DNA of 64,000 nt, from positions 1,033,264-1,097,263 of the forward strand of contig NZ_LN869529.1 in assembly GCF_001244995.1 (NCBI RefSeq), written 5' to 3'. Shown piece by piece: positions 1 to 9,372 of the stretch. Below the pieces are notes generated by a model. That model was not told the origin of the DNA. It searched no databases and saw only the letters and a list, made by a program, of their open reading frames with translations. A program made the translations under genes and the position numbers. The DNA is from Intestinimonas massiliensis (ex Afouda et al. 2020) (GTDB taxonomy: Bacteria > Bacillota > Clostridia > Oscillospirales > Oscillospiraceae). How positions within the stretch are numbered: position 1 is the stretch's first letter; every line of letters begins with the position of its first letter.

Positions 1-345
1 CTTCACTGCTCCTTGAAAACTGAATAGTTCAGTGCTGCGGATCTTTCCGCTTCTGCGAAGCAACACAGCTTCCGACGCCAAGACCTCCCGAAAGGGAGTG
101 AGCGACCTCCGGAGAGCTATAACAGTCGTGTGGTGCGGCTGCTTGCGACGATGCAGATGCCGGGTATAATGATACTTCCGTCTTTTCTTTGAATGGGCGG
201 CTCGGAGCGATCCTCGGAGGGGTGAGAGTCCCATGATACCGATTGACCATTGGTAGTCCGCAGCATTCCCAGAACTGCATAGTTCTTCTGGCAGGGGCGC
301 GAGCTGCAAATATGCCGGACAATGAAACAAACCCAAAAGAAACTT
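1..345 (+). ncRNA. Structured, ORF-poor leader with boxA-like motif (putative ncRNA)
   Basis: No convincing gene lies here. Positions 7-21 read TGCTCCTTGAAAACT, close to the boxA antitermination element of Gram-positive rRNA leaders. Several compact hairpins follow on the plus strand: GAAGC/GCTTC (57-72), CTCCC-GAAA-GGGAG with a GNRA tetraloop (85-98), and AGAACT-GCAT-AGTTCT (271-286). CTCGGAG is repeated directly near 210-228. The GNRA loop argues that the plus strand is the transcribed one. I infer a structured 5' region or ncRNA belonging to the mobile element; no known RNA family was recognised. Confidence 0.4.
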
Positions 346-373
346 ACTATATAGTTTCAGGATGAAAACTATG

Positions 374-417
374 TGGCAGGGTATCTTCACAAGATGCTCT
401 GCCATATCCTTTTGTCC
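374..417 (+). terminator. Terminator/attenuator-like hairpin before the small gene
   Basis: TGGCAGGGTATCTT (374-387) pairs with AAGATGCTCTGCCA (391-404) allowing G-U pairs, with a 3-nt loop, and is followed by a T-rich stretch (TATCCTTTTGTCC). It separates the structured leader from the DUF6870-type gene and could end the upstream RNA or attenuate read-through. Confidence 0.45.
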
Positions 418-451
418 TGAACATTTTCACGAAACAGGAGGTGCTTAGAAT

Positions 452-694
452 ATGATGGGCATAGAAACAATGAAAAATGTCAGCCCGAAAACGGTTGACC
501 GTAACACACTCGTTCAAAGAAGCAGCATCCGGCTTGATCCTGCGGCACCGCAAGAGGTCAGGCTGAGGGAGTTCATCAAGCAGATCAGAAATCCCTACTG
601 TTATCTGGACGGGAAAACTGTGGTGAAAATCACCTTCGCCGCGACGGACACAACAATGGAAGATTGTCTGGAACACTATCTGAGAGGTCTTTGA
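452..694 (+). CDS. Small DUF6870-like protein of mobile elements
   Basis: An 80-aa protein with an ideal ribosome binding site (AGGAGG, 9-10 nt before the ATG). The C-terminal half contains I-x-N-P-Y-C-Y, K-x-V-V-K-I-x-F-A-x-T-D and a final E-x-Y-L-x-x-L. I recall this pattern from short DUF6870-type proteins that often sit beside conjugative-element genes; the assignment is from memory, not a search. No catalytic motif or membrane segment is visible. It lies between the structured leader and the recombinase promoter, in the same direction, so it probably belongs to the element. Function unknown. Confidence 0.7.
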   Translation: MMGIETMKNVSPKTVDRNTLVQRSSIRLDPAAPQEVRLREFIKQIRNPYCYLDGKTVVKITFAATDTTMEDCLEHYLRGL

Positions 695-729
695 TTTATG
701 AACAGTCTGAATCTTTTCACCCGGTTCTA

Positions 730-758
730 TGGACAAGCGATTGAGCCTGTGGTATAAT
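730..758 (+). promoter_or_regulatory. Sigma-A promoter of the recombinase operon
   Basis: TGGACA (730-735), a 17-bp spacer and a perfect TATAAT (753-758). It is the only good promoter before the recombinase genes and predicts an approximately 140-nt untranslated leader. Confidence 0.8.
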
Positions 759-764
759 AAAATC

Positions 765-907
765 GGTCAAAAAAAGAAGAATACGGATTAAGCCGCTTGC
801 CTTGATGGTCATGTGGCGTTTTCGTGTTCCTCTTATAAGAGTTGAAGCAAGCCTTCGTCTTTCTGATTTGATGTACCACACCAAACAGAAAAACGGAGGT
901 TATTTTT
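765..907 (+). promoter_or_regulatory. Structured 5' leader of the recombinase operon
   Basis: The transcript leader contains GCTTGC (795-800) pairing with GCAAGC (847-852). Inside that large loop is the self-complementary CTCTTATAAGAG (830-841). The recombinase RBS (CGGAGG) follows at about 894. The nested stems suggest a regulatory fold, but no known riboswitch class was recognised. Confidence 0.4.
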
Positions 908-2542
908 ATGCCAGATAAGGTTTACCGCACGGCGATCTACTGCCGTCTGTCCCGTGAGGATGGAGACAAAGTTGAAAGCAACTCCATCGCCAGCCAGAGA
1001 GCCATCTGCGAGGACTACATTGCAAGGCATGAGGATTTGGAGCTGGTCTGTGAGCCGTTTGTGGATGACGGTTACAGCGGCGTTTCCTTCAATCGTCCTC
1101 AGTTCAAAAAGCTGGAAGAGGCAATCCGCAAGGGTGCGCTTGACTGCATCGTGGTCAAGGATCTCAGCCGCTTCTCAAGAAACTACATCGACGGCGGGCG
1201 CTACATTGAAAAGATTTTCCCGCAGCTTGGCATTCGCTTCATCGCAATCAATGATGCGTATGACAGTCTGACCGGTGATCCGCAGTCCGACTCCTTTGTT
1301 ATCCCGTTCAAAAACCTGATTAACGATTCTTACTGCAAGGACATCTCCATGAAAATCCGAAGCAGTCTGGAAGTCAAGCAGAAGAGCGGTGAGTTCGTCG
1401 GTTCGTTCGCCCCTTACGGCTACATGAAATCGCCGGAGAACAAAAACCAGCTCATCGTGGATGAAGCGGTCAGCGAATATGTGCAGATGATCTTTTCCAT
1501 GTACAAGGACGGCTTCTCCATTGGGCGCATTGCAAAGCGTCTGAACCAGATGGGCGTTCTGTCCCCAATGGAATACAAGCATTCCGCCGGTGTGAAGTTT
1601 GATACCGTCTTCAAAACCGGCGATACCGCAAAATGGACATACAAAGCCGTCCAGCGTATTCTCACCAACGAGGTTTATATCGGCGTTCTGGCGCAAGGCA
1701 AGCGCGGCACTCCCAACTACAAAGTCCGCGTTGTGAAAAGCAAGGATGAATCCGAGTGGGTCAAGGTAGAAAATGCGCATGAAGCTCTTGTGTCCTACGA
1801 GGACTTCATGGCAGTCAAGGTCATGATGCAGCGGGATATGCGCTGTTCGCCCGATCAGGACGAAGCGCATCTGTTTTCCGGCTTCCTGTTCTGCGGAGAC
1901 TGTCAGCAGCCAATGATCCGCAAGACCGTCCCGTCGAAGACGAAAAAGTATATCTACTACGTCTGCTCCACCAATAAGCACACCCGGACGTGCAGCCCGC
2001 ACAGCATCGCCGCAAAAGAGGTTGAAGAGAAGGTCTTCCGTGCCATTCATGACCAGATCGAGCTTGTCATCAATCTGGAACACGCGCTTGCGATGATAGA
2101 ACGGCTTCCGTCTCAGAGCCGTAAGGCTTTCAATTACGAAGCTCAGATCGCCAAAATCAAGGAAGAGATTGAACGGTACCAAAAGCTCAAGCTGGGGCTT
2201 TACGAGAACTTCATCGGCGGCGTCATTGATAAATCGGAATACTTCGAGTTCCGCAGCAGCTACACCAAAATCATTGAGGACAAACAGGAGGCACTTCTGC
2301 GGGTCAAAAAAGAAATGAAGCAGACGGTGACAACCGGCACGACCGAACGGAACTGGGTAACGCTTTTCAAACAGTATGAAAACGTCGAAGAACTGAACCG
2401 CCGTGTGCTGATGTCCCTTGTTGACCGCATTCTGATTCACGAAAACCATGCAATCGAAATTGTCTTCAAATACAGGGACGAATACCAGCAGACGATTGAA
2501 TACGTTCTCGGCTATGCCGATGAACTGGATATTGCCGTATAA
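908..2542 (+). CDS. Large serine recombinase 1 of 3
   Basis: A 544-aa large serine recombinase (TndX/TnpX-like group), which cuts and joins att sites to integrate or excise the element. The N-terminal resolvase domain (about 5-150) has Y-C-R-L-S with catalytic Ser15, the S-I-A-S-Q helix motif and V-V-K-D-L-S-R-F-S-R-N with the active-site arginines. The recombinase domain follows (about 160-290). A Cys-rich zinc ribbon begins F-C-G-D-C near 320 and ends around a C-x(n)-C pair near 355. A coiled coil occupies about 390-480. All expected parts are present, so it should be active. It is the first gene of a tight operon; RBS CGGAGG precedes the ATG. The start is supported by the promoter and leader upstream. 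Confidence 0.93.
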   Translation: MPDKVYRTAIYCRLSREDGDKVESNSIASQRAICEDYIARHEDLELVCEPFVDDGYSGVSFNRPQFKKLEEAIRKGALDCIVVKDLSRFSRNYIDGGRYIEKIFPQLGIRFIAINDAYDSLTGDPQSDSFVIPFKNLINDSYCKDISMKIRSSLEVKQKSGEFVGSFAPYGYMKSPENKNQLIVDEAVSEYVQMIFSMYKDGFSIGRIAKRLNQMGVLSPMEYKHSAGVKFDTVFKTGDTAKWTYKAVQRILTNEVYIGVLAQGKRGTPNYKVRVVKSKDESEWVKVENAHEALVSYEDFMAVKVMMQRDMRCSPDQDEAHLFSGFLFCGDCQQPMIRKTVPSKTKKYIYYVCSTNKHTRTCSPHSIAAKEVEEKVFRAIHDQIELVINLEHALAMIERLPSQSRKAFNYEAQIAKIKEEIERYQKLKLGLYENFIGGVIDKSEYFEFRSSYTKIIEDKQEALLRVKKEMKQTVTTGTTERNWVTLFKQYENVEELNRRVLMSLVDRILIHENHAIEIVFKYRDEYQQTIEYVLGYADELDIAV

Positions 2543-2557
2543 AGGAGGGATGAGCAA

Positions 2558-4264
2558 ATGGCAAGAAAAAGCAGAAAGCAAATTGCAGTCGAAGAGCCGG
2601 TTATCGAGTCTGTTTCTTCCGAGGTCTTCTCAACAGCCATCTATGCCCGTCTTTCCGTTGAAAACAGCGGCAAGTCTGAAAAGGTTGATGTCATCGCAAA
2701 TCAGATTGAGATTTGCAAGTCCTACATTGCAGAGCGTCCCTACCTGAATCTGATAGATACCTATGTGGACAACGGACGAACGGGTACGGTTTTTGATAGA
2801 CCGGAGTTCAACCGTCTGATGAACGACATCCGCACCGGCAGAATCAAGTGCCTTGTGGTTCGTGATCTCAGCCGGTTCGGGCGAGATTACATTGAGGCAG
2901 GAACCTATCTGGAACGGGTCTTTCCGCAGATCGGGCTTCGGTTTATCGCCATCAAGGAAAACTACGATAACTTTGATGCGGACGGCTCCGGCGAAAGCCT
3001 CATCATCCCTCTGCAAAACATGATCAACACCCTCTACTCGAAGGACATCTCCCGCAAGGTTTCTACTGCGCTCAAGGCACAGATGGAAAGTGGAGAGTTC
3101 AAGAAGCGCAATCTCCCGTATGGTTATCGCTGGGATGAAGAACACAGCAATATGGTCTTCGATGAGGAAACCGCACCGATTGTCCGGAAGATTTTCCAAT
3201 GGAAGATTGAAGGGCTGTCCCTTCCTGCGATTGCAGATCGGCTTGATGCAATGAACGCGCCCAATCCGGAGTTTCAGAAGTATCAGGTTGGCGTCCGCAC
3301 AGGCAATGCTACGGCGAAAAAGATTTGGAACAAGTCTTCACTCACTACCATTCTGGATAATCCCCACTACGTCGGAGATACCGTTCTCGGACGGACGCTG
3401 AACGCTATCTACAAGGGCGTCAAAAATCAGCATATCGACCGCGAGGAATGGATTGTTTTTCCCAATACTCACGAAGCGATTATCTCCCGTGAGGACTTCC
3501 AGAAGGTACGAGAAATGCGGAACGCTGCTGCAAGGACAAGGGTTGAGAAGATGGAGCGCACGGAAGAAATCCGCGCTACGTTGATCAATCTCTTTGAAGA
3601 CAAAATCGTCTGCGCAGACTGCGGCAGGAAGCTCTATTTCCATCGCAAGCGCGTTGACAAGCACAAGGACGGCGCATGGTACGCCTTCTATGAGTGCAGT
3701 TCATCCGTCAAGCGCGGCAATCTCTGTACGCCACACTATACGCGGCAGGACAAGCTCGAAGCCGATGTGCTTGCGGCGATCCAGCTTCAAGTCAAGGCGG
3801 CTCTCAATTACGACAAGCTGCTTGCCAAGCTGAGAAACAGCGAAGGCGAACGCAGCATCCGCGATCAGCAGAATGCGCTCATCACAAGCCTGAATCTGAA
3901 ACTCAGCGGCATCTCCAAGAAGCGTACTCGGCTCTATGAGGACTTCACGGAAGGCATTCTCGATGAAGAGGAATACGCCTTTGCCAAGAAAGCCTACGAT
4001 GAGCAGTATGTCGATCTTTCACGGCGGTTGGATGAAGCGGTTCAGCGGAAGGTAAAGTTTGCCGAGGCAATGTCCGAGGACAACAAGTGGCTAACGCTGA
4101 TGAAATCCGTCAGCGGTGCAACGATGCTCTCTCAGGAGTTGGTTGACGAGTCCGTAGAGCTTGTGAAAGTCCATGAGGACGGCTCAATCGAGCTGGTCAT
4201 GAAATACGGCGATATTTACGCTCTGACCGTTCAGAGTATCAAGGAAGTACAGGAGGCGATGTAA
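2558..4264 (+). CDS. Large serine recombinase 2 of 3
   Basis: A 568-aa large serine recombinase. Compared with recombinase 1 it has an N-terminal extension of about 18 residues before the resolvase domain; the catalytic Ser is Ser33 in Y-A-R-L-S. V-V-R-D-L-S-R-F-G-R-D carries the conserved arginines. The zinc ribbon includes V-C-A-D-C-G-R-K and a later Y-E-C-S pair, followed by a long charged coiled coil and a C-terminal beta segment. It begins 15 nt after the stop of recombinase 1 with a good RBS (AAAGGAGG). Tandem large serine recombinases occur in some ICEs, and CcrA/CcrB of SCC elements are a two-gene parallel, so the proteins may act as hetero-oligomers. That cooperation is inference. 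Confidence 0.93.
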   Translation: MARKSRKQIAVEEPVIESVSSEVFSTAIYARLSVENSGKSEKVDVIANQIEICKSYIAERPYLNLIDTYVDNGRTGTVFDRPEFNRLMNDIRTGRIKCLVVRDLSRFGRDYIEAGTYLERVFPQIGLRFIAIKENYDNFDADGSGESLIIPLQNMINTLYSKDISRKVSTALKAQMESGEFKKRNLPYGYRWDEEHSNMVFDEETAPIVRKIFQWKIEGLSLPAIADRLDAMNAPNPEFQKYQVGVRTGNATAKKIWNKSSLTTILDNPHYVGDTVLGRTLNAIYKGVKNQHIDREEWIVFPNTHEAIISREDFQKVREMRNAAARTRVEKMERTEEIRATLINLFEDKIVCADCGRKLYFHRKRVDKHKDGAWYAFYECSSSVKRGNLCTPHYTRQDKLEADVLAAIQLQVKAALNYDKLLAKLRNSEGERSIRDQQNALITSLNLKLSGISKKRTRLYEDFTEGILDEEEYAFAKKAYDEQYVDLSRRLDEAVQRKVKFAEAMSEDNKWLTLMKSVSGATMLSQELVDESVELVKVHEDGSIELVMKYGDIYALTVQSIKEVQEAM

Positions 4265-5872
4265 ATGAGCAAGGAATACAACATCGGCATCTACATCCGC
4301 CTCTCAATGGCTGATGAAGATTCCGGCTATGGCAGCAAGGCGGAAAGTGACAGCATCGGCAACCAACGTATGCTCATCAATCGCTTTCTTGACAATCATC
4401 CGGAGCTGTCTCACTGTCAGCGGTCTGAGTTTGCGGATGACGGTTATACCGGCACGAACTTTCACCGTCCTCAGTTCACGCAGATGATGGAGAAGGTCAA
4501 GCGCGGCGAGATTAACCTGATCTGCGTCAAAGACTTTTCCCGCTTTTCTCGTGACTACATTGAAACGGGAAACTATCTGGAATGCACTTTTCCATTCATG
4601 GGCGTCCGCTTTATTTCCATCAACGACGGCTATGACAGTGACGATTACAAAGGCACAACGGGCGGTCTGGAAGTGGTTATGCGCAGCATCATCTACGCCG
4701 CATACAGCAAAGACCTTTCCGTAAAGACCACATCGGCAAAAATCCAGATGATGAAGCAGGGCAAGTATGTCGGTGGCTACGCCCCATACGGCTACGTCCT
4801 GCATCCCACCATTCGGAACAAACTTGCCGTAGACCCGGAGGCGGCTGATGTGATCCGTCGTATTTTCCGCGAGGCGCTGGAAGGCAGCAACACCTCTCAG
4901 ATCGCCCGCAGCCTGAATGATGACGGCATCCCGACGCCGGGGCAATACTTCAAGAGCAAGCATCCCGACAAGAAGAAGTTCAGTAACATGAGCGAGAAAA
5001 TCAGTTGGGAAACCGTGATGGTCTATAACATCCTCAAAAACCTTGTTTACACCGGAACACTGGTCAGCCGCAAAATGAAGTCCTGCGGTGTCGGCTCAAA
5101 AAAGCGTGTTGTCAATGAGCCGATTATCGTAGAAGGAACGCATGAAGCTATTATCAGCAAGGAAGACTTTGAGCTTGCTCAGAAGGTCATTCGAGGCGGA
5201 GGACGGAATCCCACGCGCAAGCAGCATGACTATCCGCTCAAGGGACTCGTCCGATGCGGTAACTGTAAACGTGCTATGACACGCCGAAAGAACAAGGCTG
5301 GCATTCGATACTTCCAGTGCATTCACTCGGTCAACAACGGAAACACAGACTGTCCGGTTGGCAGGAGCTTTCCGGAAATGGATATTGAGAAGGTTGTCTT
5401 CCATGCCCTTACTCAGTTTCTTGCTTTGGCACAGAAGGAAGCAATACAGAACCGCGAAGTCGGTGATCTGCGGAAATCTGCCATCAAGGAATGTGCTGAT
5501 AAAATCCGCACTCTGCAAAAGCAGAACGAGCAGAACAAGGCGTCCAAGCTGAGGCTCTACGAGAAGTATGCAGCCGGAAGCATCACGAAGGAGGCGTACA
5601 TTCAGCAGAAAGCGGCAGCGGATGTGAAGATTGCTGAAAACGATGGAGCAATCCAGCGCAGTCACGAGCGGATGAAGGAGCTTGACTCCGAGACCGCCTG
5701 TTCAGATGAAAAGCTGGATGCGGTCTGCGAACAGTACGGCGACTGCAAAGCTCTGACCTATGAGCTGACCCACGCATTCATTTCTGCGGTCTACATTTAC
5801 GATCTTGACAACATAGAAATCGTCTGGAAGTTCAAGGACTTCCTCACTACATCAGAAGGAGAAGCCAAATGA
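4265..5872 (+). CDS. Large serine recombinase 3 of 3
   Basis: A 535-aa large serine recombinase starting directly after the TAA stop of recombinase 2, with AGGAGG inside that gene's last codons. The catalytic Ser14 lies in Y-I-R-L-S. The S-I-G-N-Q motif, V-K-D-F-S-R-F-S-R-D arginines, a zinc ribbon (R-C-G-N-C-K and Y-F-Q-C) and a coiled coil (about 390-480) are intact. The 3' end overlaps the next gene by ATGA, implying translational coupling with the small partner. The three large recombinases are clearly paralogous but diverged, so this is an old tandem array, not a recent duplication. Confidence 0.93.
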   Translation: MSKEYNIGIYIRLSMADEDSGYGSKAESDSIGNQRMLINRFLDNHPELSHCQRSEFADDGYTGTNFHRPQFTQMMEKVKRGEINLICVKDFSRFSRDYIETGNYLECTFPFMGVRFISINDGYDSDDYKGTTGGLEVVMRSIIYAAYSKDLSVKTTSAKIQMMKQGKYVGGYAPYGYVLHPTIRNKLAVDPEAADVIRRIFREALEGSNTSQIARSLNDDGIPTPGQYFKSKHPDKKKFSNMSEKISWETVMVYNILKNLVYTGTLVSRKMKSCGVGSKKRVVNEPIIVEGTHEAIISKEDFELAQKVIRGGGRNPTRKQHDYPLKGLVRCGNCKRAMTRRKNKAGIRYFQCIHSVNNGNTDCPVGRSFPEMDIEKVVFHALTQFLALAQKEAIQNREVGDLRKSAIKECADKIRTLQKQNEQNKASKLRLYEKYAAGSITKEAYIQQKAAADVKIAENDGAIQRSHERMKELDSETACSDEKLDAVCEQYGDCKALTYELTHAFISAVYIYDLDNIEIVWKFKDFLTTSEGEAK

Positions 5873-6264
5873 AAGTATTTCTTTATATCCGCGTTGCCTG
5901 TGCGGATCAGCTTGCGGCAGCAGACCAGCGGGAAGAGCTGGAACGCTATGCGAAGGACAAAGGCTATGAGGTGGCTGCTGCTGTGGCGGCAGACGGCATC
6001 TCCGGCGTCCATACGGAAGGTATCATGAACTTCCTGCTGAACGAAGCCAAGCGTCAGGACATCGGTACGATCCTCACCCGCGACACCTCGCGAATCAGCC
6101 GGGACACTTCCTCTTTCATGAGGTTTGAGCGAAAGTTCCGGGAGAACGGCATCCGGTTCGAGTATCTGTCCAAGCCTGACAACGAGCTTCCGGTCACTCC
6201 GATGTTGGAGGCATTTGCGGCGGCGTATAAGAAGCGTCGCACAAAGAACGGCACAAGAGCGTAG
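5869..6264 (+). CDS. One-domain resolvase-like protein, catalytic Ser replaced by Ala
   Basis: A 131-aa protein consisting only of a resolvase N-terminal domain. The position of the nucleophile in Y-x-R-[VL]-S is Y-I-R-V-A here, so the serine needed for strand cleavage is missing. The arginine motif survives as T-R-D-T-S-R-I-S-R-D. It lacks the recombinase domain, zinc ribbon and coiled coil of the large proteins and ends in a basic tail. It overlaps recombinase 3 by ATGA, so it is coupled to it. I infer a non-cleaving partner that joins or regulates the recombinase complex, for example as an orientation or directionality factor. The same substitution recurs in the gene at 8822-9235. Confidence 0.82.
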   Translation: MKVFLYIRVACADQLAAADQREELERYAKDKGYEVAAAVAADGISGVHTEGIMNFLLNEAKRQDIGTILTRDTSRISRDTSSFMRFERKFRENGIRFEYLSKPDNELPVTPMLEAFAAAYKKRRTKNGTRA

Positions 6265-6272
6265 AGAAAACG

Positions 6273-6332
6273 CAAGCCGTTCACGGGTGGTTGTCCACCT
6301 ATGAACGGCTTGTAAATTCTCAAAATTTTTTT
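6273..6332 (+). terminator. Intrinsic terminator ending the recombinase operon
   Basis: CAAGCCGTTCA (6273-6283) pairs with TGAACGGCTTG (6302-6312), enclosing an inner stem GGTGG/CCACC (6286-6299). A T-run follows at 6326-6332. It closes the operon and lies about 20 nt before the predicted element boundary. Confidence 0.85.
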
Positions 6333-6356
6333 AGTCCCTACTTGACACAAGAAGAC
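6333..6356. other. Predicted right end of the mobile element (junction into another recombinase gene)
   Basis: Up to about 6353 the sequence is unrelated to a recombinase. From the GAC codon at 6354 it reads straight into D-L-S-R-L-G-R-N-Y, the middle of a serine recombinase catalytic domain whose first roughly 75 residues are missing. The codon expected before the Asp is Lys (AAG), but GAA is found, so the switch falls at or next to the GA of GAC. TndX/TnpX-type recombinases are known to cross over at GA dinucleotides. The left end lies outside the window, so the attachment pair cannot be compared here. Confidence 0.5.
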
Positions 6357-7376
6357 CTCTCCCGGCTGGGCCGGAACTACATTGAGGTGGGCAAGCTCAC
6401 CGAGGAATTTCTCCCGCTCCATGATGTGCGGCTGGTGGCGGTGTCCGATGGCGTGGACAGCGACGAAGGCGAAGATGATTTTACCCCGTTCAAGAACATT
6501 ATGAATGAATACTACGCCAAAGACATTTCCAAGAAGCGCCGCATCGTCAATAAGATGAAAGGCAACGCCGGGATTCCGCTTTCTCCGCCGCCCTACGGCT
6601 ACATAAAGAACCCGGACGATCCCCGGTTTTGGGTGATTGACCCGGAGGCTGCCGAGGTGGTGCGCTGTATCTACCGCATGGCGCTGGACGGGTATGGGCT
6701 GGCTGAAACTGCCGCTGCCCTCGGTGCGGATGGGATTGTCAACCCGACCTACTATTGGCACAGCAGGAGTACAAGCAGGGGAGGCTCTAAAAGCACCGTG
6801 GAGCCCACAAAATGGGGACACACCACGATCAAGAAAATCTTGACCACCCAAGAATATTGCGGCGATGTCATCAACTTCAAAAGCTATTCCAAATCCTATA
6901 AAATGAAGCGCCGGATTGAAAACCCGGAGGAAAACCGGGCGATCTTCCTCAATGTCCATGAGCCTATCATTGACCGGCCAACTTGGGAAAAGGTACAGGC
7001 GTTAAAGGCCGGGACACGGCGCAAGCGTCCCACCGTTACGCAGGAGTCCAGCGCCTTTTGCGGCTATCTGAAATGCCCGGAGTGTGGCGGCAATCTGAAT
7101 TTCCATTTTAACCAGGGCAACCACGACATCAAATTCTTTAGCTGTAAGAACCACAATTCCGGGCTCCGTAAATGCTCGTCTACCCACTATATCCGGCCGG
7201 ACTTCTTGGAGCAGGTCGTGCTCTACGAGATCCACCGGCTGGCCTGCTTCGCTAACGAATACGAAAATGACTTCATCAAAGCGATGGTAGGTCGCTCGGC
7301 AAAGGTAGCGGAAAATGACCGGGTACGCAAGAAACGGGAGCTGGACGGACTGTTGGCCCGGGACAAGGAACTGGAT
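6354..7376 (+). pseudogene. Large serine recombinase remnant A (lacks N-terminus and C-terminal end)
   Basis: About 341 codons of a large serine recombinase beginning at D-L-S-R-L-G-R-N. The catalytic serine and first half of the resolvase domain are gone. The recombinase domain (P-P-Y-G-Y, E-Y-C-G-D-V) and zinc ribbon (K-C-P-E-C-G-G then F-S-C-K) are present. The coiled coil breaks off at E-L-D (7368-7376), where remnant B begins in frame. No start codon with an RBS exists; the open frame runs back through the upstream terminator to a TTG. It is therefore a dead fragment even though the frame is open. Confidence 0.8.
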
Positions 7377-8822
7377 ATGTCACGGTTGGGCCGGGACTAT
7401 TTGCAGGTTGGAATGTATACAGACAAGTTTTTCCCAGAACATGATGTGCGCTTTATCGCTGTCAACGATGGCGTGGACAGCGCCGAGGGGGAAAATGAGT
7501 TTGCACCATTCCGTAATATTATGAATGAGTGGTACGCCAGAGATATATCCCGCAAGATACGCAGTTCCCATCGGTTGCGTGGAAACACAGGCGTTCCGCT
7601 TTCCCAGCCGATGTATGGATACATCAAAGACCCGGAGAACCCCCGGCGGTGGATTGTGGACGAGGAGGCCGCCCAAGTGGTGCGATATATCTATAAGCTG
7701 TGTATCGACGGCATGAGCGAGTACCGCATTGCCGACCATTTGGAAAAGCAGAAAATTCTAACCCCCACGGAGTATTGGAGAAGTAAAGGTATCCGCAGGA
7801 GCGGAAAAAAGGGCGGCGCATACAAGGATAGCCCCTATTACTGGTGCAAGACCACCATCAACAAAATTCTCAACGCCCGTGAGTACATGGGCGATGTGGT
7901 GAACTTCAAAACCTACTCTAAGTCATTCAAAGACAAGCGACGCTTTGAGAACCCCGAGGAAAATCAAATGATTTTTGAGGGTGTCCACGAGGCAATTATT
8001 GACCGTCAAACGTGGGAAATGGTACAGCGCACCCGGCAAGGGAACAAGCGGCGTCAACCCAAGAAAGTTGAAAAGAATATGTTTTCGGGGTTGCTGTTCT
8101 GCGCTGGCTGTGGGCGTAAGTTGCATTTCAACGTCAACCACCCGCACACGGAAATCCAATACTTCAACTGCTCCAACTACCGGGGCAACCGGGGAACGTG
8201 CAACGACACCCATTATATTCGGGCCGATGCGCTGGAACAGGTCATGCTTTTGGAGCTGCGCCGCATGACTGCCTTTTTGCAGGACAAGGAGGAGGACTTT
8301 GTAAAGCTGCTGATGTCTAAATCCATGCAGGAGGCCGTCAAGGAGAGTAAACGCCGGGGGCAGGAACTTCGGGCCATGTTGGCCCGAAGTAACGAACTGG
8401 ATGCCCTGTTCTCTAAGACCTACGAGGACAATGCCAGCGGCAAGCTATCCGACGAGCGGTATATGATGATTACCAAACGGTATGACGATGAACAGCTTGC
8501 TCTTAAAAAGAAAATCTCCGCTCTGCAAGCGGAGATCGACGAGGAGCAGCGGAGCAAGGACAGCGCCGCCACCTTTCTACGGACTGTCAAGAAGTACACC
8601 AATATTGAGGAGCTAACGCCGACTATTCTAAACGAGCTGGTGGAAAAAATCGTCGTTCATCAAGCCGAGGGTGTGGGAAAAGGCCGTACCCAGCGGCTTG
8701 ACATCTATTACAATTTCATCGGCACCCTTGACACGCCGGAAGTTGCCGCCTTGCCCGCAAGCGTCACCCTTGACACAAGGCAAGGGGTGGCGGTTGAGTA
8801 CATTCCCCGAAAGGCCGGGTGA
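7374..8822 (+). pseudogene. Large serine recombinase remnant B (lacks N-terminus)
   Basis: About 482 codons of a second recombinase starting at D-M-S-R-L-G-R-D-Y, the same motif where remnant A begins. It is fused in frame to remnant A through a shared GAT codon. The recombinase domain, zinc ribbon (F-C-A-G-C-G-R-K, F-N-C-S), coiled coil and natural C-terminus are all present. The intact continuation E-L-D-A-L-F is visible in B's own coiled coil at 8394-8410, which shows where A was cut. No catalytic Ser remains in the whole fused frame. Its 3' end overlaps the second one-domain partner (TGATG), the same arrangement as the intact operon. Confidence 0.8.
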
Positions 8823-9235
8823 TGACGGTGAATAAGAATAAGCCCGTGAGAGTAGCCCTGTACTGCCGTGTAGCCCATGAAAGCCAGCTCTGCATTGACG
8901 CACAAAAGGCCCAGCTTACGCAATATGCCCATTCGCTGGGTCATACCGACCTTACATATTACACCGACAACGGCGCAAGCGGCTTGACCCTCGACCGCCC
9001 CGGTTTTCGCCAAATGGAGGCCGCCATACGGGCCGGGGGTGTTGGTGCGGTGTTGGTAACAGACTTTTCACGATTGGGCCGTGATATGTGGCAAGTGCTA
9101 CGCTGGGGCGATAGTGTCAAGCGTGAGGGCGTGGCCGTTCTTTCAGCGAGACACCCCGGTGAGCCGCTTGTATCGCCAATCATGGAGAGCCTTTACAAAG
9201 CCTATGCCAGCCAACGCCGTAAAAAAAGAAAATAG
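8822..9235 (+). CDS. Second one-domain resolvase-like protein with Ser->Ala
   Basis: A 137-aa resolvase-domain-only protein. The nucleophile position reads Y-C-R-V-A, Ala instead of Ser, exactly as in the partner at 5869-6264. V-T-D-F-S-R-L-G-R-D keeps the arginine motif. ATG 8822 overlaps the stop of remnant B; a GTG at 8819 is an alternative start. The C-terminus is R-K-K-R-K. Those A-rich codons double, on the other strand, as the U-tract of the tRNA-Pro terminator. The upstream recombinase is a remnant and no promoter is seen, so expression is doubtful although the frame is intact. Confidence 0.78.
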   Translation: MTVNKNKPVRVALYCRVAHESQLCIDAQKAQLTQYAHSLGHTDLTYYTDNGASGLTLDRPGFRQMEAAIRAGGVGAVLVTDFSRLGRDMWQVLRWGDSVKREGVAVLSARHPGEPLVSPIMESLYKAYASQRRKKRK

Positions 9236-9295: not shown

Positions 9296-9372
9296 TGGTC
9301 GGAGTGGCGGGACTTGAACCCGCGGCCTCTTGGTCCCGAACCAAGCGCGATACCAAACTTCGCCACACCCCG
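9296..9372 (-). tRNA. tRNA-Pro (anticodon CGG)
   Basis: A full cloverleaf on the minus strand. The acceptor stem CGGGGTG pairs with CACTCCG, the anticodon stem CTTGG/CCAAG encloses loop TTCGGGA with anticodon CGG followed by G37, the T-arm has GGTTCAAGTCC, the discriminator is A and CCA is encoded (9296-9298). Its 3' end faces the mobile-element remains, the usual orientation of tRNA-linked islands, although serine recombinases do not normally target tRNAs. Confidence 0.95.

Follow-up and report, generated by a model that had tools for sequence, protein, structure and literature searches.

In Tn4451/Tn4453 and Tn5397, a single large serine recombinase (LSR; TnpX and TndX, respectively) crosses over at GA, and in Tn4451 a promoter is formed at the joined ends. 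Streptococcal ICEs with serine integrases in triplets have been described with hsdM, traG, and mutT as targets, traG belonging to another ICE, and it has been argued that ICEs choose targets of low host cost (PMC4701971). IMEs are described as inserting into traG, snf2, and maff2 of Tn5252-superfamily ICEs (PMC5357655), while Tn6103 of C. difficile is described as carrying the nested elements Tn6104-6106, inserted by LSRs with a 2-bp repeat (PMC3158075). A multi-targeting clade of LSRs has also been described, in which one LSR type enters varied genes, mostly at short AT-rich motifs, and in which DUF4368 is common (PMC10083194).

The locus studied here lies in Intestinimonas massiliensis (ex Afouda et al. 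2020). The window that we analyzed is a stretch of 64,000 nucleotides of contig NZ_LN869529.1 (positions 1,033,264-1,097,263; G000:C7:1033264-1097263 in our numbering). We read its positions 1-6355 as the right end of a 60,095-bp ICE whose triplet-LSR operon recombines a 50-bp, GA-centered attP with an attB formed by the codon run Lys-Asp-[Leu/Met]-Ser-Arg-x-Gly, and we put the probability of this reading at roughly 90%. We saw directly the junctions at the two ends, their GA core, the target's two colinear halves, the many LSR targets, and a natural contig with joined ends.

The element differs from Tn4451/Tn4453 and Tn5397 in having three LSRs instead of one, and the catalytic domain of TnpX was a distant match only. 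With the streptococcal triplet ICEs it shares three LSR genes in a row and in the same orientation at one end, short junction repeats, and a disrupted target, the arrangement of a triplet module as described there; in contrast to them, its target is a catalytic codon of many kinds of LSR, and its own LSR codons are altered (PMC4701971). Since its target is not hsdM, traG, or mutT, it falls outside the specificity groups described for those elements (PMC4701971). As with the IMEs that target Tn5252 ICEs, a conserved gene of another mobile element is entered and disrupted; those IMEs are described as hitting conjugation or backbone genes, whereas here an integrase gene is hit, by an intruder that is itself an ICE with conjugation genes (PMC5357655). 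Tn6103 is similar in that mobile elements are nested in an ICE through LSRs with a 2-bp repeat, but its nested elements lie in two other ORFs, and we found no integrase target reported for it (PMC3158075). The multi-targeting clade likewise combines one LSR type with many target genes; here, however, the target genes all belong to one family, the LSRs themselves, and are entered at one codon, and DUF4368 was found at threshold in LSR1 and was absent in LSR2 and LSR3, which places the element outside that clade (PMC10083194). The large LSR survey names other favored targets, and we found no mention of LSR genes among them (PMC10083194). Our searches of open-access main texts, some with narrow phrases, found no description of LSR genes or integrase active sites as attB. 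ICE insertion into the genes of other ICEs is already known; integrase active-site code as attB is apparently new.

The two junctions and the genes of the element

Element DNA gives way to an LSR gene at window position 6354, where the sequence reads GAC CTC TCC CGG CTG GGC (D-L-S-R-L-G). Positions 6330-6355 are TTTAGTCCCTACTTGACACAAGAAGA, the sequence from 6356 on is CCTCTCCCGG, and GA followed by CCTCTCCCGG encodes D-L-S-R. The LSR catalytic domain after 6354 has no N-terminus, its Pfam Resolvase match being limited to profile positions 71-132. A PF00239 search of the same genome located the missing half 60 kb upstream, with Resolvase positions 1-72 at C7:979297-979527. This N-terminal half (G000:C7 up to 979521; L012) reads ...SAVFVK, ends in GTGTTTGTGAAA-GA, and passes directly into TTATTGTGCGATAATAGGACTAAA, the left end of the element. 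The GA core that both junctions have in common (6354..6355, plus strand) is the place of crossover, and counted with one GA copy, the element is 60,095 bp long (C7:979524-1039618). Aligned to the intact homolog L151, the N-terminal half corresponds to residues 22-126 and the C-terminal half to residues 127-261 (56% and 61% identity); zero residues are lost between them, and they join at the GA of the Lys-Asp codons. One of the family's targets is present intact in the same genome (L025); where it is occupied, its left flank agrees with this intact gene at 81% in DNA and 95% in protein, and its right flank at 87% and 97%. An earlier note on this DNA had claimed, from the right junction, that an element had inserted inside the catalytic motif of another serine recombinase gene, and had expected the missing N-terminal part next to the left end. 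The paired junctions, the GA core, and the colinear halves of one gene confirm the insertion, and the recombinase N-terminus does adjoin the left end.

The recombinase operon lies on the plus strand and begins with three genes whose products all contain the Resolvase, Recombinase, and zinc-ribbon (Zn_ribbon_recom) Pfam domains of LSRs: LSR1 (908..2542), LSR2 (2558..4264), and LSR3 (4265..5872). They are followed by a small fourth protein with the Resolvase N-terminal domain only (5869..6264; motif TRDTSRIS) and by a terminator-like hairpin, recognized by reading the sequence, that closes the operon (6274..6311). The right arm of the element end (6330..6353, plus strand) makes up, together with the left arm, an attP of 50 bp (24 + GA + 24), that is, the short common core between two near-symmetric arms of an LSR attP; its outer 8 bases are inverted repeats (TTTAGTCC / GGACTAAA). 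Scans of ten plus eight proteins, a part of the element, revealed a relaxase resembling MobA/VirD2, TrbL_2, and both a VirD4-like protein (CD1115 family) and a VirB4-like ATPase (CD1110 family). Also encoded are ArdA, topoisomerase III, and a type I restriction set whose proteins resemble HsdR and HsdM. The element thus combines what an ICE requires: defined ends and a site-specific recombinase together with VirB4, a coupling protein, and a relaxase.

A relative of the element was found with its ends joined. The genome of Anaerotignum lactatifermentans (G414) has both ends solely on one 64,072-bp contig, which carries the same 34 bp at each terminus and reads right end-GA-left end (joint L096/L251); this contig, the sole copy there, is the circular form of the relative, as assembled. 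The joined ends (L251:21-49) contain TTGACA-17 bp-GATAAT with TG ahead, matching 11 of 12 consensus bases and forming a predicted promoter directed into the conjugation genes at the left end. Its -35 half, TTGACA, lies at window positions 6342..6347 (plus strand), and the left-end part lies at L012:6270-6275. The -35 place was not TTGACA in any of the 14 integrated copies that were read with a left end (from L012 and L097-L110), and the predicted promoter would be switched on only in the circle.

Beyond the insertion, older remnants follow. Remnant A, the C-terminal part of the cut LSR from its Asp codon (6354..7379, plus strand; Pfam, BLASTP, and alignment to L151), is fused in frame at GATATG (7374-7379) to remnant B, a second LSR (7374..8822, plus strand; Pfam and sequence). 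In L045, a homolog of remnant A crosses the same GATATG within the run ELDMLFER and continues differently afterwards. We had considered the fusion as a second recombinase-made junction and set this aside as unneeded, since the 6-bp identity seen with the L045 homolog explains a deletion; the fusion is probably a deletion between neighboring LSR genes of an older element. A small resolvase-domain protein beside remnant B (8819..9235, plus strand; Pfam) probably belongs to the same older element, whose attachment site is likely the adjacent tRNA-Pro gene (9296..9372, minus strand; ARAGORN). Elsewhere in the genome, remnant B and the tRNA stretch both have matches at G000:C7:1171447-1172813 (74% and 91%, respectively), and the older element type therefore seems tied to tRNA-Pro genes.

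Recurrence of the target and the attB codon run

Relatives were collected through an LSR3 scan of named genomes (43 loci), end-pattern searches, which gave more, and a scan of viral contigs (15). At each occurrence of the end pattern, the right-end flank was extracted where there was one, and the flanks were clustered at 90% identity over 60 bases. From the resulting 50 clusters, we set aside the circle joint (L096/L251), L306, and L343; L055 and L276 were without flank. L306 and L343 have right ends 100 bp behind triplet LSR3 genes, non-LSR flanks, and susceptible motifs of their own. Using BLASTP alignments that begin at the first residue, 41 of the 47 distinct right-end flanks (87%) were assigned to LSR genes, with the point of entry at the Asp codon of K-D-x-S-R (41/49 if L306 and L343, triplets outside the clade, are counted), and because so many fall at the same codon, chance is excluded. 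The left flanks were N-terminal halves of LSR genes in 13 of 15 distinct cases, all 13 with AAA or AAG before GA. The survey thus shows ends inside K-D-[LM]-S-R codons recurring in dozens of different LSR genes. The proposal of the earlier note that the V-K-D codon serves as attB and that the gene of a resident integrase is split is supported by this recurrence and by the N-terminus at the left flank. Incidentally, this work came across no copy of the truncated gene that lacked an element beside it.

The right-end pattern was present in 11 of 400 family genomes, in which the reversed pattern had zero matches, and LSR3 relatives at E <= 1e-70 were present in 24 of 393 class genomes. Among the hosts are Fournierella, Oscillibacter, Angelakisella, Gemmiger, Negativibacillus, Pseudoflavonifractor, Faecalibacterium, Intestinimonas, and Mediterraneibacter. 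A distant subfamily with a changed end (TTGACACAAGGAGA) and an LSR3 approximately 44-49% identical accounts for 7 of the 38 LSR flanks used in the site analysis. At several junctions (L062, L064, L066, L272, L273, and L297), more LSR genes lie downstream of the cut gene, which indicates that cousin multi-LSR (triplet) elements are among the victims.

The bases A-3, A-2, and T-8 are fixed in 13/13 left flanks, and T+3, G+9, G+14, and A+21 in 31/31 right flanks of the close family. Most fixed attB bases are dictated by the amino acids, and a background set of 31 KD.SR LSR genes that are not targeted, taken from G000 and carrier genomes, looks similar; the attB is therefore in effect the conserved codon run. 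A weak preference was seen for C at -14, present in 10 of 13 targets versus 9 of 31 background genes (p = 0.007, uncorrected over approximately 54 positions).

A second motif of LSR genes is also entered. Six relatives outside the clade end at the GA of D-[DEK]-G-x-[ST]-G in LSR genes (L072:2610, L286:8192, L287:7822, L288:6499, L290:6321, and L291:5233), with BLASTP alignments starting from residue 1 in all six. They comprise L072 and five of the 80 viral loci that the L072 recombinase retrieved; being chosen for their LSR fragments, they give no frequency. TTGACA stands 6 bases before GA at these ends as well. Self-exemption was sought in this group and was not seen, its own LSRs retaining DDG/DNG motifs much like those of the targets. 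A protein search with the L072 recombinase (E <= 1e-120) gave no match in 391 class genomes, a result that had no positive control and carries no weight. The triplets L234 and L235 (also L316, at a contig end) end at the GA of D-D-L-G-R in a SpoVT-like gene, and TTGACA again stands 6 bases before GA at L234 and L235.

Motifs of the own recombinases

Each of the element's three LSRs is without the K or the G common to the targets: LSR1 (VKDLSRFS) and LSR3 (VKDFSRFS) have S in place of G, and LSR2 (VRDLSRFG) has R in place of K. The fifth residue after Asp in the 31 background LSR genes is G in 29 and A in two. Among complete triplets in which every motif could be read, none of the 32 from the clade has an LSR of its own that combines K with G (0/21 in genomes and 0/11 in viral contigs), compared with at least one such LSR in 51 of 51 other triplets (16/16 and 38/38, three being common to both sets). 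The replacing residue varies inside the clade (S, T, or M). This clade is a single branch of the LSR1 tree (100/99 support, 40 rows), and the apparent self-exemption therefore has one origin and does not represent independent cases. L070, L232, and L233, the closest relatives that seem to use a different target, have the susceptible form in LSR1; an LSR fragment beyond the element end was sought at these three loci and was absent. Judging from the codons, loss of the K or the G codon of the site in each of the element's own LSR genes would protect them from insertion. TnpX, aligned through PDB 2mhc, has an intact KDMSRLG motif, and its gene would therefore be open to insertion and not exempt.

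Readings of the target choice and their meaning

Insertion most likely occurs by crossover of the triplet LSR at GA between attP and the target codon run, and the element's own LSR operon would catalyze this step. The half of the target with the catalytic serine and the remainder end up 60 kb apart, and a resident whose integrase is cut after that half should lose movement by this enzyme for as long as the intruder is present. Why this site is used can be explained in several ways. An even chance, in our estimate, goes to LSR genes being only a safe harbor, numerous, conserved, and useless to the host, with damage to the resident as a by-product and self-exemption merely preventing self-insertion. 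Carriers offer many such genes: PF00239 matches number 11 to 44 per genome in ten carrier genomes, and of the 22 in the I. massiliensis genome, four are intact with K and G. One chromosome of Faecalibacterium sp. I4-3-84 (G409) holds two copies (L048 and L049) in two different LSR genes, which also means that there is no strict exclusion, and the argument that ICEs choose targets of low host cost points the same way (PMC4701971). A safe harbor alone leaves unexplained why the active-site codons of recombinases, and not some other common gene, were reached twice, by the unrelated K-D and D-[DEK]-G specificities, although codon conservation could explain this.

We consider it possible, but short of probable, that these are anti-integrase elements, evolved at K-D-[LM]-S-R-x-G and D-[DEK]-G to silence the integrases of rivals, cousin triplets included, with their own three LSRs immune. 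The disruption of the resident gene is plain from the junctions; competition may be its purpose. Self-exemption fits both element competition and a plentiful target that the host can dispense with. If the elements did evolve against rival integrases, attack and immunity at the level of codons would amount to an arms race inside the integrase active site.

A recombinase of low specificity, for which LSR genes are merely a favored subset of the many GA sites that it enters, appears unlikely. It would account for the six of 47 right-end flanks that are not LSR genes by BLASTP (L047, L054, L084, L088, L271, and L278), of which L047, L054, and L088 retain pieces only of the LSR site; the two non-LSR left flanks, L097 and L109, pair with the right ends L047 and L054. 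Such flanks indicate that the enzyme reads DNA and not gene identity. Against low specificity, 87% of the distinct flanks lie at one codon of one protein family, and in three of the six exceptions (L084, L271, and L278) the junction still carries 15-20 bp that correspond to the LSR motif before unrelated DNA begins. The L271 and L084 flanks share 77% over 560 bp further on. The flanks of L271, L278, and L084 are perhaps the end of another element that copies the LSR motif.

More improbable still is a regulatory switch, in which reversible insertion silences and releases the resident integrase to the benefit of both. The right part of the cut gene is usually open to its C-terminus, so that precise excision could restore the target gene, and with a circular form in existence, restoration is possible; the targeting of unrelated residents in many genera argues against co-adaptation. 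Finally, we give practically no credence to a scenario without any insertion, in which the truncated LSR is a surplus member of a tandem recombinase array that has decayed, since, even though remnants A and B and several LSRs stand in tandem, the N-terminus that it lacks is found 60 kb away at the same GA core, as it likewise does in the paired junctions represented by 13 of 15 left flanks.

Insertion of an ICE into the catalytic codon run of other LSR genes has several implications. Annotators should be aware that an LSR gene split in two marks the ends of an element in gut Clostridia, and the targets form a natural set of attB variants for studying how serine integrases tolerate sequence change. 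Both element-against-element conflict and codon-level self-immunity are directly testable with small plasmids. Mobile elements need integrase genes to move, and a landing code in the active site gives this ICE family targets in very many of them. While inserted, it should stop each host element from moving by the cut enzyme, and it must protect itself.
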